From NCBI GenBank assembly GCA_946538525.1, contig CAMNGU010000005.1:1-52143 (forward strand): 52,143 nucleotides of DNA, given 5' to 3'. This document shows, one piece after another, positions 25,734 to 32,071 of the stretch. Positions within the stretch are counted from its first letter, which is position 1. Each line of letters starts with the position of its first letter. Under the pieces are notes generated by a model. The model did no database searches. It was not told the origin of the DNA and saw only the letters and a list, made by a program, of their open reading frames with translations. Source of the stretch: an uncultured Lachnospiraceae bacterium (GTDB lineage: Bacteria > Bacillota > Clostridia > Lachnospirales > Lachnospiraceae). The position numbers and the translations under genes were made by a program.

Positions 25734-25866
25734 TGGATAGTAATTTAGAGTCGAAATCATTGCATAATGTTAGGTGTTGTGGCAAAATATTTGAAGGGTG
25801 TAGATATCATTTACCCTGGAGCTGTCTTAAGATTCATGCTCTGTAAAAATATAAAAGGTGTTATAC

Positions 25867-26562
25867 ATGGAAAATAATAGAAAAATATTGATCGTTGATG
25901 ATGATGTAGCACTTTCAGATATTATAAAGGAAATGCTGGAGAGTTATGATTATTCAGTGGAACAGGCCGAAAGTATTGAGGATGCATATGAGAAGCTGAC
26001 TGACGGAAAATATGACTTGATAATTCTTGATATTAATCTTCCTGATGGCGAAGGATATGAGGTGTGTCAGGAGCTTAGGAAGGCATCCACGGTCCCGGTT
26101 ATATTTGCTAGTGCCAGAACAAATGTGGATGATAGGGTAACTGGTTTTGAGATTGGTGGAGATGATTATCTTCCAAAGCCATATTCCATGAAAGAACTAT
26201 TGGTGCGAATAAATGCGCTTATTAGAAGAACTTATGGTTTTTCGGAAGGAGAAACCAAGGTTCAATTTGGCGATGTGGAAGTTAATCTTACTACCAGAAG
26301 TGTTACGAAGGCAGGGAATACTGTTAACCTGTCGCTTAAAGAATTTGATCTATTGGCATTTCTTTGTATGCATAGAGGAGAAGCGATTGAGAAGGATAAA
26401 TTGATTTCTGAGGTTTGGGGAGCATTCAGTGAAGTGGATCCTTCGACCCTTACTGTTCATATCAGATGGCTGAGAGAAAAACTGGAGGATGATCCTTCTA
26501 AACCTGTGTATATTAAGACCGTATTTAAGATAGGCTATATTCTGGATGTGCCTGTAGAGTAG
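25867..26562 (+). CDS. OmpR/PhoB-family response regulator
   Basis: DNA-binding regulator of 231 residues. A receiver domain has the acidic cluster Asp11-Asp13, phospho-acceptor Asp55 in the LIILDINLPDGEG segment, and Lys in PKPYS. It is followed by a winged-helix output domain with the LSLKEFDLLAFL and VDPSTLTVHIRWLREKL motifs. ATG at 25867 is preferred because AAAGG lies eight bases upstream; an in-frame GTG at 25858 overlaps that ribosome site. The sensor kinase follows after 10 bases. Targets are unknown; the 10-bp-spaced direct repeats before the giant gene are of the kind this family binds. Confidence 0.94.
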   Translation: MENNRKILIVDDDVALSDIIKEMLESYDYSVEQAESIEDAYEKLTDGKYDLIILDINLPDGEGYEVCQELRKASTVPVIFASARTNVDDRVTGFEIGGDDYLPKPYSMKELLVRINALIRRTYGFSEGETKVQFGDVEVNLTTRSVTKAGNTVNLSLKEFDLLAFLCMHRGEAIEKDKLISEVWGAFSEVDPSTLTVHIRWLREKLEDDPSKPVYIKTVFKIGYILDVPVE

Positions 26563-26572
26563 GATATTTTAT

Positions 26573-27796
26573 ATGAAAAAAAGACTAATTATAATTGCAT
26601 TTATATATACAGCAGTGCTGGTCTTAATTTCACATCTGGTTTTTAGTTTGCTCATTAAGAATGTCAGTGATGAGCTGAACAAGGAAAATGAATATGAAAC
26701 CAGTATAGCAGTTGAGATGAATGAGGTTAAAAAGCTTATTTCAAATGGCGATATTGAAGGGGCAGTGTCCAAATGTGACGAAGTGGTGGAAGTCTTTAGT
26801 CACGGTGAAAATAGAGAGGTTGAATATCTTGTTTTGATGTGGCTGTTTGTTGGAGTGAATATTCTCGCGGTTATTATACTTCTCATTTATATTTATATGA
26901 GGATTTTAAAACCATTTGAAGATTTGAAAGAATATGCTTCGGATATTTCGAGAGGGAATCTGGATGTGCCTCTCAAAGTTAAAAAAGGTAATTATTTTGG
27001 CGACTTTACCTGGGCGTTTGATAATATGCGTAAGGAGATAGTGAAGTCCAGAAATGCTGAAAAGAATGCCATAGAGAACAATAAGACTGTGGTGGCTACT
27101 CTTTCACATGATATTAAAACTCCAGTGGCATCTATAAGAGCGTACGCAGAAGCCTTTGAGGCTAATATGGATTCAACTCCTGAGAAAAGACAGAAATATC
27201 TTGGGATACTGATGCAAAAATGTGACGAAGTAACGAATCTCACCAACGACCTTTTTATTCATAGCATCTCGGAAATGGATCGACTTAATATCATTAAAGA
27301 AAAGCTGGATATAGTAAGCTTTATGAACAGTGATCTAAGAGAACTTTATGCAGATGAAGAAGTTGAGATAAAGATTCCTGAATCTTTTTCAGGGGATTTA
27401 TCAAGTGGTTCTGCAGGTGATATTTCAAATACTCAAAAAAGAATCTTTATTAGTGCAGATAGAAAAAGACTTCTTCAGATTATGGAAAATCTGAAGAATA
27501 ATGCGGATAAATATGCAAAAACTAAAGTAAGTATTTCTCTGGAACTGGATGATAAAAGCCTTTCAATTCATTTCCGGGATTATGGCCCTGGAATATCAGA
27601 TGAGGAGATACCATTTATCACTGGAAAGTTTTATCGAGGGAAAAATGCTGGTGCTGAGAATGGATCAGGCTTGGGACTATATATTGTTAAGGAACTTATG
27701 GAGAAGATGAATGGGGGACTAAAAATATATAATAAAAATCCTGGATTAGATGTGGTTTTGGATTTTGTTATATTGGATTCTACAGAAAATATTTAG
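26573..27796 (+). CDS. Sensor histidine kinase, HAMP-type
   Basis: Membrane kinase of 407 residues paired with the preceding regulator. A transmembrane helix is at about 4-25. A short extracytoplasmic sensor of about 55 residues follows, then a second helix near 83-106 and a HAMP segment (RILKPFEDLKEYASDISRG). The phospho-acceptor is His179 in LSHDIKTP. The N box (ENLKNNADKYA), G1 (DYGPGI) and G2 (GSGLGLYIVKELM) complete the ATP-binding domain. The small sensor loop suggests detection within the membrane or via a partner. A Ser/Gly-rich insertion lies between the dimerisation and ATPase domains. Confidence 0.94.
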   Translation: MKKRLIIIAFIYTAVLVLISHLVFSLLIKNVSDELNKENEYETSIAVEMNEVKKLISNGDIEGAVSKCDEVVEVFSHGENREVEYLVLMWLFVGVNILAVIILLIYIYMRILKPFEDLKEYASDISRGNLDVPLKVKKGNYFGDFTWAFDNMRKEIVKSRNAEKNAIENNKTVVATLSHDIKTPVASIRAYAEAFEANMDSTPEKRQKYLGILMQKCDEVTNLTNDLFIHSISEMDRLNIIKEKLDIVSFMNSDLRELYADEEVEIKIPESFSGDLSSGSAGDISNTQKRIFISADRKRLLQIMENLKNNADKYAKTKVSISLELDDKSLSIHFRDYGPGISDEEIPFITGKFYRGKNAGAENGSGLGLYIVKELMEKMNGGLKIYNKNPGLDVVLDFVILDSTENI

Positions 27797-28135: not shown

Positions 28136-29662
28136 TTATGCCAGATGAAGTACATTTAGCAGTAGTAACCAGCTCATTCCATAGTATGTTACTACAGCAA
28201 CTAAGTCGTTAATGGTTGTGATAAGTGGACCTGAAGCAACAGCAGGGTCCACCTTGATTTTCTTGAAGAATAATGGTATCAGTGTTCCTACTGCACTGGA
28301 AATCAGCATAGCGAGTAATAGAGAAAGACCGATACATCCTGATACTGCGTAGGAGAACATAAATGTTTTTCCTTTTGCAAAATGAATATACAGACCCACC
28401 AGCAGGAAGGATATAACGCCCAGCAGCAGACCGTTACAAAGTCCTACACGCATTTCTTTTGTAACCAGATGACCTTTCTGCTTAAAGGTTAGGTTTTCGT
28501 CCATAAGTACTCGGATGGTTACAGCTAGTGACTGGGTACCAACATTACCGGCCATGTCCAGAATAAGTGATTGGAAGGCCATAATAAGTGTGAGCTGAGC
28601 TACCACATGATCAAATAAGGAAACCACACTGGAAACGATCATTCCAAGGCCTAACAGGATGATGAGCCAAGGAAGTCTTTTCTTCATACTTTGTCCAAGG
28701 GGTTCCTGAAGATCTTCTTCAGCAATAAGACCAGCCAGCTTTACATAGTCCTCACTCATCTCATCATCTACAACTTCGATAATACTCTGGGCAGTGATGA
28801 TTCCCAGAACTTTGTTTCTATTATCAAGAACAGGTATATAATCCTCTGAATAATCCTTCAGTCTTTCAATACAGTCATCAATGCTTTCGTTGGCATAGAC
28901 ATAAGGGAATGAGGTAACTATCAGGTCATCTAGTGGAACAGTGTTTCTTGCGATGATCAGGTCCTTAAGGTCGATGGCTCCATAGAATTCATCATTTTCA
29001 TCCACTACGAAGAGAGTAGAGATGTTGTCATTTTCCTCTGCCTGTTTAACCAACTCATTCATCGCCTGTTTAACTGTCAGGTTCTCACGAATGAGGATAC
29101 AGTTGGTGGTCATGTGGCTACCGATTTCATCCTCATCGAAGGAAGCCAGCAGTCGAATCTCTTTCTGTATCTCAGGATTGATAGCGTCTATTATAAGCGC
29201 GCGTTTTTCTTTTTCAATTTGATGAAGAACATTTGCGGCTGTGTCTGTCTCCAGATCAGAGATTACAAGTGCGGCCTTATAAATGTCCATTTCATTAATA
29301 TAAACAGCGGCTTCATCTTCCTCAACATACTCGAAAATCTCAGCCAACATTTCTGAATTACAGATTCGGAAGAATTTCTTTCTTTCCTGTGGCTGAAGCA
29401 CACTAAAAACCTGAGCAATATCATTTTCATGATAGTCCTCAATTTTACTAAGTATCACTCTTGGGGAAAATGTTCCTCTGATGATTTCCAATATCTCTGA
29501 CTCATAGTCGCGCTTTGGAGCTGTAACAGCTTCTGCGTCAATATTGTCAGTAGTATTGATGGTTTCTTTCTCATTTGCCTCACTAGAAGAGTTCTTGGAT
29601 GTATTCTTGGATGCATCCAATTCAGAATCTAGTAAAACATCTTTTTCTTTGATATCTGACAT
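28136..29662 (-). CDS. mgtE: Magnesium transporter MgtE
   Basis: Mg2+ channel of 508 residues. After a variable Ser/Asn-rich lead come the MgtE-N superhelical domain (about 60-185) and two CBS domains (about 190-310, with FVVDENDEFYGAI and IPVLDNRNKVLGIIT) that sense cytosolic Mg2+. The five-helix pore follows, with the GNVGTQS and VDPAVASGP signatures; the Asp in the last motif is the pore metal ligand in known structures. The start is set at 29662 because GGAGG lies five bases upstream; the frame stays open 18 codons further without a ribosome site. It is transcribed alone, with a structured leader upstream. Confidence 0.95.
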   Translation of the reverse strand: MSDIKEKDVLLDSELDASKNTSKNSSSEANEKETINTTDNIDAEAVTAPKRDYESEILEIIRGTFSPRVILSKIEDYHENDIAQVFSVLQPQERKKFFRICNSEMLAEIFEYVEEDEAAVYINEMDIYKAALVISDLETDTAANVLHQIEKEKRALIIDAINPEIQKEIRLLASFDEDEIGSHMTTNCILIRENLTVKQAMNELVKQAEENDNISTLFVVDENDEFYGAIDLKDLIIARNTVPLDDLIVTSFPYVYANESIDDCIERLKDYSEDYIPVLDNRNKVLGIITAQSIIEVVDDEMSEDYVKLAGLIAEEDLQEPLGQSMKKRLPWLIILLGLGMIVSSVVSLFDHVVAQLTLIMAFQSLILDMAGNVGTQSLAVTIRVLMDENLTFKQKGHLVTKEMRVGLCNGLLLGVISFLLVGLYIHFAKGKTFMFSYAVSGCIGLSLLLAMLISSAVGTLIPLFFKKIKVDPAVASGPLITTINDLVAVVTYYGMSWLLLLNVLHLA

Positions 29663-29744
29663 GATGCCCTCCATTATTCTTTTAGTAAATTCAGCGCACA
29701 AAAAGAACTGAATCATTATAAAATAAATGAAAGGGTCGCAGGAT

Positions 29745-29864
29745 TTAATCTATATGAATATTGAGAAGCATAGTGATCAAAGTGGCAGAATTTTCGAACT
29801 GCGACTTATAATCTCTATGCTTGCAAGATCGTCCGCTCGACCCATGACTGTCGCCATTCGCCAC
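29745..29864 (-). CDS. Putative 39-codon leader reading frame upstream of mgtE
   Basis: A GTG-initiated frame with a near-perfect Shine-Dalgarno (AAGGGAGGTGA, 8 bases between GGAGG and GTG), better than most genes here. The peptide begins VANGDSHGSSGRSCKHRDY and ends LLNIHID. A second overlapping frame begins with ATG at 29857 and would give 26 residues (MATVMGRADDL... ending ILPL, stop at 29777). Neither peptide resembles a known family to me. The frame ends 82 bases before mgtE. It may be a regulatory leader peptide or may be chance within a structured RNA. Confidence 0.4.
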   Translation of the reverse strand: MANGDSHGSSGRSCKHRDYKSQFENSATLITMLLNIHID

Positions 29865-29873
29865 TAAAATCAC
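29773..29873 (-). promoter_or_regulatory. Candidate structured leader (switch) of mgtE
   Basis: On the mgtE strand GTGATtttAGTGGC (29873-29860) can pair with GCCACTttgATCAC (29786-29773): 11 pairs around a 3x3 internal loop, hiding the leader ribosome site and GTG. Inside, GCGAC pairs with GTCGC. Downstream CTGCGACCC can instead pair with GTCGCAG or with GGGTCG, offering exclusive folds. The M-box (ykoK) consensus is not recognisable. Other than this element and a hairpin further up, 29874-30045 holds only A/T-rich sequence. Confidence 0.45.
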
Positions 29874-29961
29874 CTCCCTTAATTTGGTCTAGATAGGATT
29901 GATATTAAGCTTTTTTAAAGCTTTTTAAACATTCATTTTCATGCATATATCAATATAAGAA

Positions 29962-29997
29962 CTGTGATATTTTACTCACAGCTTAATTATTATCACA
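29962..29997. promoter_or_regulatory. Nested inverted repeats in the mgtE / ABC-F divergent region
   Basis: CTGTGA (29962-29967) pairs with TCACAG (29976-29981), and TGTGATA (29963-29969) also pairs with TATCACA (29991-29997). These exclusive TGTGA-type pairings lie about 110-130 bases before the mgtE leader and 50-85 bases before the ABC-F promoter. It may be an operator; no binding protein is known. Confidence 0.25.
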
Positions 29998-30045
29998 CCA
30001 TAGACAAATGATGTCAAGAATCTTCTCTTATAAATTTATTTATGC

Positions 30046-30051
30046 TATAAT
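30046..30051 (+). promoter_or_regulatory. Extended -10 promoter for the ABC-F gene
   Basis: TGCTATAAT contains a consensus TATAAT (30046-30051) with the TGn extension. No good -35 is present, which an extended -10 can tolerate. Transcription would begin near 30058, some 43 bases before the start codon. Confidence 0.6.
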
Positions 30052-30100
30052 AGCGCTTGCTATATCAGCGTTTTAAATGTATGAAAGGGAAAAATATACT

Positions 30101-32071
30101 ATGATCCTTGCGTGTCAAAATATCAGCAAGAGCTATGTTGGAAATGATGTTTTAAAGAATGTAAATTTTCATATTGAGAAAAATGATAAGTGTGGAATAG
30201 TCGGAATAAATGGTGCCGGCAAGACCACACTTCTTCGTATTATATTAGGTGAGGAAGAGGCGGACAGCGGCAATGTGGTTATAGCCCGGGATGTGAGAAT
30301 GGGATATCTATCTCAGAATCAGGACACAGAGCTGGATAATACCATTTATGGTGCTATGCAGGAGGCTAAGAAGTACATTATCGAGATGGAAGCCCGAATC
30401 CGTCAGTTGGAGCAGGAGATGGAGGGCAAGACAGAGGAAGAACTTGCGCCAATCCTTGAGGCTTATAATAGACTCTCTACACAGTATGACAGAGAAAATG
30501 GCTATGCTTATGAAAGTGAGATAACAGGAGTTATTGCTGGACTGGGCTTTGGAAAAGAGGACTATGATAGACCGATTGCCAGTCTTTCTGGAGGACAGAA
30601 GATGAGAGTTGCATTAGGACGATTACTTCTAAGTCATCCTGATATCATCATTCTTGATGAGCCTACCAACCATTTGGATATGACATCTATCAGTTGGCTG
30701 GAGGGATATCTTGCAGCTTATCCGGGGGCGGTTATTGTAGTCAGCCATGATAGATATTTTATTGATAAGATTACCAATAAGATTATAGAGATAGATCAGG
30801 GCGTTTCAGGAATCTATAACGGCAGCTATTCTTACTATAGTGAAGAAAAGGCTAAGAGAAGACAGGCGGAAATGAATGCCTATATTAAACAACAGGCAGA
30901 GATAGCCCATGAGGAAGCGGTTATAACAAAGCTAAAACAGTTTAACCGTGAGAAGTCTATCAAGCGTGCGGAGAGCCGCGAGAAGAAACTGGATAAGATA
31001 GATAGAATAGATAAGCCGACTGAGACGGTTGCGGATATGAGGCTCAAGCTGGAGCCTGTATGTGAATCAGGTGAGGATGTTCTCCTTGTGGAAGGTCTGG
31101 CAAAGGCTTATGGAGAGAATAAGCTTTTTGAAGAACTGGGGATGGATATTAAGAGAGGCGAGCATGTTGCGCTTATCGGAGGAAATGGTACTGGTAAAAC
31201 CACCATTCTTAAGATTATAGCCAGAAAGCTGGCAAAAGATGCCGGGAATGTGACTTTGGGAGCCAAGGTTAGAATTGGATACTTTGATCAGGAGCATCAC
31301 GACCTGGATGTGAATAAGTCTATATTTGACGAGATGTCAGACTCATTTCCAGATATGAATAATACGAGAATCAGAAATGTTTTAGCAGCATTTCTTTTTA
31401 CAGGTGAGGATGTTTTCAAAAAGATTGGGGACCTTTCAGGTGGAGAGAGAGGACGACTTTCTCTGGCGAAGTTAATGCTGTCACCTGCTAATTTCCTGAT
31501 ACTAGATGAGCCTACCAACCACCTGGATATTCCGTCTAAGGAAATTCTCGAGGATGCACTTAAGGACTACACAGGTACAGTGCTATATGTCAGTCATGAT
31601 CGTTACTTTATCAATAAGACAGCCACCAGGATAATAGAACTTAGGGAGAAGGTTCTTACTAGCTTCGTAGGTGATTATGATTATTATGAAGAGAATAAGG
31701 ATCATCATTTTGCTGTTCAACATCCGGATATGGCGATAAGTCTTGGGATATCTGCAGACGGAAATACTGCTTCTGTTTCTGGAGATGCATCGGGCACAGC
31801 TTCAGGTGGCGCCAATAAATCTGCTGGTCGTCTTGAGTATGAGAGCAAGAAGGCTTCCTATGCAGAGCAGAGAAAGCGTGAAAATGCATTAAAGAGAGTT
31901 GAGAAAGCTATAGAGAAGCTTGAAGGAGAAATCGGAGAAATCGACGAACAGCTAAATGATCCTGCCAATGGAACGGATGCAGGACTTCTTATGGAACTGG
32001 CCGGCAAGAAGCAGGAAGCGGAAGAAAAGCTGGAAGAACTTTATACTGAGTGGGAAGAATTGCAGGACTAA
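30101..32071 (+). CDS. ABC-F family ATPase (ribosome-associated)
   Basis: Soluble protein of 656 residues with two ABC domains and no membrane segments. The first has Walker A GINGAGKTT near 35-43, signature LSGGQ and IILDEPTNHLD. The second has GGNGTGKTT, LSGGE and LILDEPTNHLD. A charged linker (AEMNAYIKQQAEIAHEE) joins them, and a C-terminal coiled coil follows a Ser/Gly/Ala-rich stretch. ABC-F proteins act on the ribosomal E site in translation rescue or antibiotic protection; the coiled-coil tail fits the Uup/YdiF-like branch, but the class cannot be fixed. ATG at 30101 is chosen over 30077 because AAAGGGA lies 10 bases ahead and the protein then begins with the usual MILACQNISK. Confidence 0.92.
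   Translation: MILACQNISKSYVGNDVLKNVNFHIEKNDKCGIVGINGAGKTTLLRIILGEEEADSGNVVIARDVRMGYLSQNQDTELDNTIYGAMQEAKKYIIEMEARIRQLEQEMEGKTEEELAPILEAYNRLSTQYDRENGYAYESEITGVIAGLGFGKEDYDRPIASLSGGQKMRVALGRLLLSHPDIIILDEPTNHLDMTSISWLEGYLAAYPGAVIVVSHDRYFIDKITNKIIEIDQGVSGIYNGSYSYYSEEKAKRRQAEMNAYIKQQAEIAHEEAVITKLKQFNREKSIKRAESREKKLDKIDRIDKPTETVADMRLKLEPVCESGEDVLLVEGLAKAYGENKLFEELGMDIKRGEHVALIGGNGTGKTTILKIIARKLAKDAGNVTLGAKVRIGYFDQEHHDLDVNKSIFDEMSDSFPDMNNTRIRNVLAAFLFTGEDVFKKIGDLSGGERGRLSLAKLMLSPANFLILDEPTNHLDIPSKEILEDALKDYTGTVLYVSHDRYFINKTATRIIELREKVLTSFVGDYDYYEENKDHHFAVQHPDMAISLGISADGNTASVSGDASGTASGGANKSAGRLEYESKKASYAEQRKRENALKRVEKAIEKLEGEIGEIDEQLNDPANGTDAGLLMELAGKKQEAEEKLEELYTEWEELQD

Follow-up and report, generated by a model that had tools for sequence, protein, structure and literature searches.

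The gene for a predicted MgtE magnesium transporter in this uncultured Lachnospiraceae bacterium lies behind a leader whose mode of control is the question raised by the locus. The contig stretch analysed here, referred to as the window, is 52,143 nucleotides in length. Control of mgtE in Gram-positive bacteria is usually explained by the M-box (ykoK), a Mg2+ riboswitch. A sequence-only reading of the window had described mutually exclusive RNA folds in the mgtE leader, not recognisable as an M-box, and suggested a candidate switch of undescribed type, responsive to Mg2+ or to translation. The best explanation of the leader is a translation-coupled attenuator built around a conserved leader peptide, a probable assignment on comparative sequence grounds, with low Mg2+ as the likely trigger. 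The proposal of an undescribed type of switch is supported, with no Rfam match and with compensatory change present. The translation-responsive form of that proposal is favoured, and the conserved centre of the leader is an upstream ORF (uORF) that had been noticed merely as a leader ribosome site. The features of the locus are listed in Table 1.

Table 1. Predicted features of the mgtE locus in the window (positions of the whole stretch)
Feature	Position	Strand	Basis or remark
mgtE, 508-aa Mg2+ transporter	28136..29662	-	TIGR00400 above cut-off; Pfam MgtE_N, CBS and MgtE domains
Promoter-like site, TTGACA-17-GATAAT	29989..30017	-	11/12 matches, with TG
Leader ORF Shine-Dalgarno, GGGAGGTGA	29870..29878	-	Sequence
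Leader ORF (uORF), 39 aa, VANGDSHGSSGRSCKHRDYKSQFENSATLITMLLNIHID + stop	29745..29864	-	Sequence; beginning conserved in relatives
Codons 4-12, GGC GAC AGT CAT GGG TCG AGC GGA CGA, conserved unpaired core	29829..29855	-	
P1 5' strand, GTGAT + AGTGGC, overlapping Shine-Dalgarno and start codon	29860..29873	-	
P1 3' strand, GCCACT + ATCAC, inside uORF end	29773..29786	-	Own-partner preference, 70 leaders
Rival hairpin, mid-uORF strand AAGCATAG	29815..29822	-	
CTATGCTT, partner of AAGCATAG; adjoins P1 3' strand, one base in common	29766..29773	-	Pair probabilities 0.79-0.97
GTCGCAG, alternative mid-uORF strand	29799..29805	-	Pairing with CTGCGAC about 0 at equilibrium
CTGCGACCC, past uORF; pairs with GTCGCAG or GGGTCG (29838-29843)	29733..29741	-	GGGTCG/CGACCC 0.07-0.08 at equilibrium
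CCTTTCATT, anti-Shine-Dalgarno strand (P3) opposite mgtE ribosome site	29726..29734	-	Pair probabilities 0.43-0.93, window leader only
AATGGAGGG, mgtE Shine-Dalgarno region, pairs with CCTTTCATT	29667..29675	-	

An Rfam scan of the whole window returned no family at threshold, and the M-box model (RF00380) did not reach its gathering score. A low-threshold scan of positions 29300-30300 gave five implausible families without the M-box among them. Rfam riboswitch matches were likewise absent from 45 uORF-bearing loci (12 + 13 + 20). One of the 40 scanned mgtE loci without the uORF by the criteria used (40 of 42 such loci) does carry an M-box (L189), so the scan is able to detect M-boxes where they are present. 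The L189 M-box (369-527, + strand) is located upstream of the mgtE homologue. Between it and the gene lies a short ORF (MDGDSYPDTTNTGY...) that has a Shine-Dalgarno sequence, so both kinds of control may be present in tandem. Another 20 mgtE loci, of which 19 belong to distant paralogues (25-29% identity), had no M-box. Two other Rfam matches were recorded: Clostridiales-1 RNA (L101, 1100-1264, + strand), upstream of a mgtE homologue without the uORF, and DUF3800-XI RNA (L099, 2996-3043, - strand). In the relevant parts of two published sources, a mgtE riboswitch is mentioned for B. subtilis (PMC12288461) and an M-box controls a uORF in an Mtb case (PMC12810186).

The uORF of the window begins with GTG at 29864 behind a strong Shine-Dalgarno sequence, and on the mgtE strand its peptide begins VANGDSHGSSGRSCKH. 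Boxes similar to the promoter-like site (TTGACA...ATAAT) are visible in the upstream DNA of some relatives. All of the pairings named in the sequence-only reading are present on the minus strand where it had placed them. In P1, GTGAT (29873-29869) pairs with ATCAC (29777-29773) and AGTGGC (29865-29860) with GCCACT (29786-29781). This helix spans the leader Shine-Dalgarno (29878-29870) and the GTG start and would therefore hide the uORF ribosome site, in keeping with the burial proposed earlier. GTCGCAG (29805-29799) can pair with CTGCGAC (29741-29735), the inner GCGAC being at 29854-29850, and GGGTCG (29843-29838) can pair with CGACCC (29738-29733). The best duplex of the window start region with downstream DNA has a z of -2.7, with 1 of 100 shuffles equally good, and the minimum free energy of the whole leader is mildly unusual (z of -1.79 and -2.22). 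In the equilibrium fold of the complete window leader, P1 has a probability of approximately 0.03. The rival hairpin AAGCATAG/CTATGCTT competes with P1 for the same 3' stretch and dominates this fold, so P1 is one of two alternative states rather than the predicted ground state. The claim of alternative folds is confirmed, and the alternatives presumably exclude each other, but the pair probabilities do not favour the named helices at equilibrium. The scarcity or absence there of P1 and of the two pairings with GTCGCAG and GGGTCG counts against the attenuator model, which needs co-transcriptional folding or ribosomes.

A search of a sample of 397 genomes of the family, 99 of which encode a close MgtE, supplied 98 mgtE loci. 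A motif screen of the upstream DNA followed by a nucleotide model identified the uORF before 56 of the 98 mgtE homologues. The core of the related uORFs reads M-D-S-C-D-S-H-G-R-S, typical leader peptides being MDSCDSHGRS..., MDNSDSCGRTRR... and VDNGDSQGRSS..., and the uORFs of 70 leaders are 24-52 aa in length. A close mgtE (79-85% identity, L002-L007) is found in only six of 36 genomes of the same genus, and all six carry a Shine-Dalgarno and an ORF beginning [VM]-x-x-G-D-S-[HY]-G-S-D-G-R. The other 42 of the 98 upstream regions contain no recognised uORF, though at least four of these have divergent look-alikes (L140, L173, L174, L177). A mgtE 79% identical to that of the window (L096) has no recognisable uORF within the upstream DNA examined. 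A strict DNA pattern retrieved 12 stretches from a sequence collection, annotated as Lachnospiraceae, Clostridiales, Eubacterium or Ruminococcus MAGs together with one Lachnospiraceae strain, LC2019. Seven of the 12 were inspected; a mgtE ORF follows the leader in five, and of the other two the first stops at the leader and the second is truncated right behind it. The 39-aa peptide alone, searched against 299 genomes, gave itself as the sole convincing match, with the next at E 0.03 or worse. A DNA pattern allowing one mismatch was uninformative in the 397 genomes, matching 21 genomes against about 31 for the reversed control, with the exception of one exact match (L066); three one-mismatch matches re-scanned with a stricter DNA pattern were not recovered. 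The comparisons below use a set of 62 leaders (62 from 110 regions, minus L100, which has a 12-aa ORF with a TTG start, plus L089) and a set of 70 that adds eight later leaders, and some members are near relatives. The leaders were partly chosen by Shine-Dalgarno and peptide motif, so the universal presence of both is not independent evidence.

The association with Mg2+ transporter genes was examined with R1, a sequence-only model of the first codons of the uORF (53 positions) trained on 40 mgtE leaders and searched against genomes regardless of mgtE. In the 397 family genomes R1 gave 48 matches at E ≤ 1e-3, with weaker matches (up to E 0.05) mostly outside this tally, and 44 of the 48 are on the strand of a close mgtE, 122-683 nt ahead of it. 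One of the remaining matches (L206) precedes a mgtE cut by the contig end. Another (L221; G238 contig 22, 338000-341300) precedes a gene for an MgtA-type Mg2+ P-type ATPase (TIGR01524) and has its own uORF, MDSGGSHERY..., with an 11-bp start-region helix, AAGAATGGATA/TATCCATTCTT. A third (L222) is false, as it falls in a larger ORF (MDNCDWCNLSEEDK...), and the last (L218) is an orphan, lacking a downstream mgtE. The L218 locus nevertheless contains a complete leader (1517-1780) with a uORF, MDSCDSQSRSIYNDG..., and by eye an antiterminator and a terminator-like hairpin; its next ORF, of about 100 aa, we take to encode a TIGR04076-type protein. Among 216 genomes of the order, 18 had matches at E ≤ 0.002, 16 of them before mgtE; eight of the 16 belong to three further families and five had already been counted in the family search. 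The other two are a leader whose next gene lies outside the locus (L238) and a false match, in an ORF presumably resembling ribosomal protein L28. Scanning 18 loci of MgtA homologues gave just two weak matches (E 0.0045 and 0.12). Upstream ORFs at the mgtA loci L243 and L249, MDTGSNSS... and MESGSS..., may be related.

Compensatory change in homologous leaders had been put forward as a check on the proposed switch, and it is present both by duplex z-scores and by partner swaps. The best duplex of each start region with its downstream DNA, compared with dinucleotide-preserving shuffles, averages a z of -2.40 across the 62 leaders, 35 of which fall below -2. When 22-nt segments were scanned along 68-70 leaders, the signal peaked at -10..+12 (P1; mean z -2.54, 44/70 below -2) and again at +36..+58 (P2; mean z -2.04, 35/69 below -2), and it vanished at +9..+31 (the core; mean z -0.05, 3/70 below -2). 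As a control, segments at -10..+12 of 28 ORF starts in the window (ORFs of at least 150 aa with a Shine-Dalgarno-like site) gave a mean z of 0.07, with 0/28 below -2. The downstream DNA of each of the 70 leaders was then exchanged for that of the other leaders. A leader's own DNA had a median rank of 0.06 for P1 (top 5% in 34/70), 0.11 for P2 (27/70) and 0.49 for the core (6/70). Two predicted helices thus co-vary within leaders, P1 joining the uORF start to the uORF end and P2 joining the mid-uORF to sequence beyond it. Examples of such pairing are ACAGAATGGAC/GTCCGTTCTGT (L104), ACAAAATGGATAGT/ACTGTCCATTTTTGT (L115) and AGAGAATGG/CCATTCTCT (L122). MAFFT and RNAalifold weakly recovered P1 in the clade of the window and nothing in a second group; the variable 3' strands could not be aligned, which is why duplex z-scores and partner swaps are used here rather than an alignment-based covariation count.

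The helices are also placed in relation to the ends of the uORF and to downstream elements. The stop codon of the uORF falls within -20..+40 nt of the 3' end of P1 in 59 of the 70 leaders, whereas 200 random placements gave 27.8 such leaders on average and 37 at most. By eye, the far strand of P2 in several leaders either doubles as the 5' arm of a terminator-like hairpin (L006, L218) or is complementary to the mgtE Shine-Dalgarno region (L102, L112). Terminator-like sites occur in 55 of 70 leaders and overlap P2 in 39, counts obtained with loose criteria and no shuffled control. The order of the P1 and P2 3' strands is the same in 65 of 70 leaders and is left out of the evidence because the search ranges favour that order. 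Instead of excluding each other, the two helices might form together as a pseudoknot, a point against the attenuator model.

The conserved core exhibits the marks of a coding sequence together with an unusual choice of codons. In the N-terminal codons, third positions account for 47% of the pairwise differences among 13 leaders and 48% among 37, and Ser is maintained through AGY/TCN exchanges; in codons 14-24 the third-position share is 34%, with no codon periodicity. Within codons 2-14 of 62 leaders, CGA makes up 67 of 86 Arg codons (78%) and AGT 122 of 169 Ser codons (72%), compared with 50/589 and 151/1094 in 32 mgtE ORFs from the same set of loci. The conclusion is the same with the ORFs of the window, where CGA makes up 33 of 533 Arg codons (stop-to-stop ORFs in six frames, some possibly spurious). 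An in-frame CGA is located at codons 6-12 in 63 of 70 leaders, the other seven having AGA, CAA, CAG, CAT or different codons. All 141 occurrences of AGT in codons 2-14 are in frame, and CGA occurs 72 times in the reading frame but 5 and 33 times in the other two, counts that result partly from the Shine-Dalgarno and motif selection. Peptide and codons therefore both appear to be selected, given the third-position variation and the extreme codon choice, and the nucleotide-level preference for CGA and AGT is greater than the peptide alone would need, which counts against the attenuator model. Acidic residues are found at position 2 (D/E) in 51 of 70 leaders and at position 5 (D) in 59; in the window peptide the sole early acidic residue is Asp at position 5 (D5), position 2 being Ala. 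Three leader peptides searched against NCBIfam and the window peptide searched against Pfam had no match.

The attenuator reading can be set out as follows. A ribosome that paused on the early conserved codons, or left the RNA there, would keep P1 open and the mid-uORF free. P2 could then form and withdraw the partner from the terminator or anti-Shine-Dalgarno helix, turning mgtE on. A ribosome running through the uORF would strip P2, and an absence of uORF translation would let P1 shut the leader, the OFF fold being favoured in either case. By analogy with E. coli MgtL and Salmonella MgtQ, the trigger would be low Mg2+ weakening ribosomes on the early codons, and the pause may come from the nascent peptide or from slow codons (CGA, AGU, GGG). 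A response to Mg2+ is plausible, with mgtE behind nearly all of the strong matches and MgtA behind one, and the signal is probably low Mg2+ because the leader precedes mgtE and, once, mgtA. Acidic residues are the known destabilising element, and their scarcity in the window peptide counts against the attenuator model. The upstream regions with no recognised uORF, L096 among them, weigh against it too. It is possible that the slow step lies at the CGA/AGU block rather than at acidic residues, since the window peptide has a single early Asp. CGA is read by an inosine-34 tRNA. An unlikely version is that codon-anticodon decoding itself is the Mg2+ sensor, in which GGG-CGA-AGU would slow the ribosome when Mg2+ is scarce and timing would select the fold. 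If true, such sensing of Mg2+ would be specific to codons and would differ both from aptamer riboswitches and from arrest peptides of the acidic or proline kind.

The same conservation could be read as that of an RNA ligand site. In a metabolite or metal riboswitch, which appears rather improbable here, the GAYAGTCAYGGG...CGAAGT block would be an unpaired aptamer core, possibly with P1 and P2 as an H-type pseudoknot, and the ORF would be incidental. Such a core would account for the conservation of nucleotides beyond residues, with CGA and AGT codons dominating, and P1 and P2 do flank the core as in a pseudoknot; in three leaders, moreover, CAA or CAG replaces CGA and changes the residue. The position of the variation is that of a reading frame, however, as third positions are most variable in the core and not past it, Ser is retained through codon swaps, the peptide classes differ in length by whole codons, and AGT and CGA are concentrated in frame, although those counts stem partly from selection. 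The lack of an Rfam riboswitch match in the window and the 45 uORF-bearing loci scanned also argues against a riboswitch.

The codon enrichment would equally be expected if the leader sensed the charging of the tRNAs reading CGA, AGT or TGY, and CGA AGT is repeated in some leaders (L178, L113). Amino-acid attenuation of this kind is nonetheless very doubtful, as the downstream genes encode Mg2+ transporters rather than amino-acid functions, the codon mix spans several amino acids, and Gln or His replaces Arg in four leaders. Least credible is a small protein acting in trans, for example on MgtE, with the RNA helices secondary. The N-terminus is indeed conserved as a peptide, and Mg2+-related small proteins such as MgtR are named for Salmonella in the pertinent part of PMC8092293, but conservation is limited to about ten residues, the variation in codons 14-24 has no codon periodicity, and pairing with start and downstream sequence constrains the DNA of that part. 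Two general features of leader-peptide attenuators are seen at mgtE: a short ORF with a ribosome site lies upstream of the gene, its translation being predicted from sequence, and alternative helices share sequence with the ORF and extend to a terminator-like site or to the ribosome site of mgtE, as judged by the P1 and P2 tests and the anti-Shine-Dalgarno helix of the window.

In enteric bacteria, leader peptides are known to control Mg2+ transport. As described in part of Choi et al. (2021, PMC8092293), mgtQ is an 8-aa ORF before mgtB of Salmonella with Asp2/Glu5, Pro4 and alternative stems involving the mgtB ribosome site. The mgtE leader resembles that account in having a short ORF with a strong Shine-Dalgarno ahead of a Mg2+ transporter gene, in its alternative stems, one formed with the ORF and one burying the ribosome site of the transporter gene, and in the frequent acidic residues at positions 2 and 5, although the window peptide is without D2. 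It differs from the intergenic 8-aa mgtQ with its Pro4 in the greater length of its uORFs, in their location in a 5' leader, in the conserved CGA/AGT codon block and in belonging to other bacteria and another transporter family (MgtE). No resemblance was seen past M-D-x-x-D/E, in peptides that are too short for sequence homology to be judged. In the sections of PMC11282234 that deal with mgtL, the leader of E. coli mgtA, the early acidic residues Glu2 and Asp4 destabilise ribosomes at low Mg2+, and ribosome drop-off leads to an RNA fold permitting mgtA transcription. Here too a leader peptide precedes a Mg2+ transporter gene, but the EPDP motif of that description is missing from the mgtE leader core, and several mgtE leaders show intrinsic-terminator-like or anti-Shine-Dalgarno elements in place of Rho-dependent termination. 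The "mgtE motif" SRC-65-1, in the portion of Narunsky et al. (2024, PMC11109978) that describes it, also precedes mgtE and has a stem that takes in the mgtE Shine-Dalgarno and AUG; it is reported from Thioalkalivibrio only and is presented there as a structured riboswitch candidate, without description as a uORF.

No description of such a mgtE leader was found in searches of an open-access library, nor a family for it in Rfam, NCBIfam or Pfam. The leader thus appears to be new, a putative leader-peptide family for Mg2+ transporters apparently unrelated to MgtL and MgtQ and with an unusual codon signature. A leader ORF widespread before mgtE, and once before mgtA, would give Lachnospiraceae and related families a solution of their own, apparently a convergent one, and the joint conservation of residues and exact codons would make it a clean system for how ribosomes sense Mg2+.

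Two neighbouring regions of the window were also noted. The divergent neighbour of mgtE (30077-32071, + strand) encodes a 664-aa ABC-F protein (NF000355 above cut-off). The ABC-F protein EttA of E. coli acts on MgtL translation, according to the part of PMC11282234 that concerns it. A role of the neighbour in the leader was considered and dropped, as matches of just 25-30% identity, none of them close, were found in 2 of 18 loci of relatives. Beyond mgtE (25858-27796, + strand) are ORFs that by eye resemble a response regulator and a histidine kinase.
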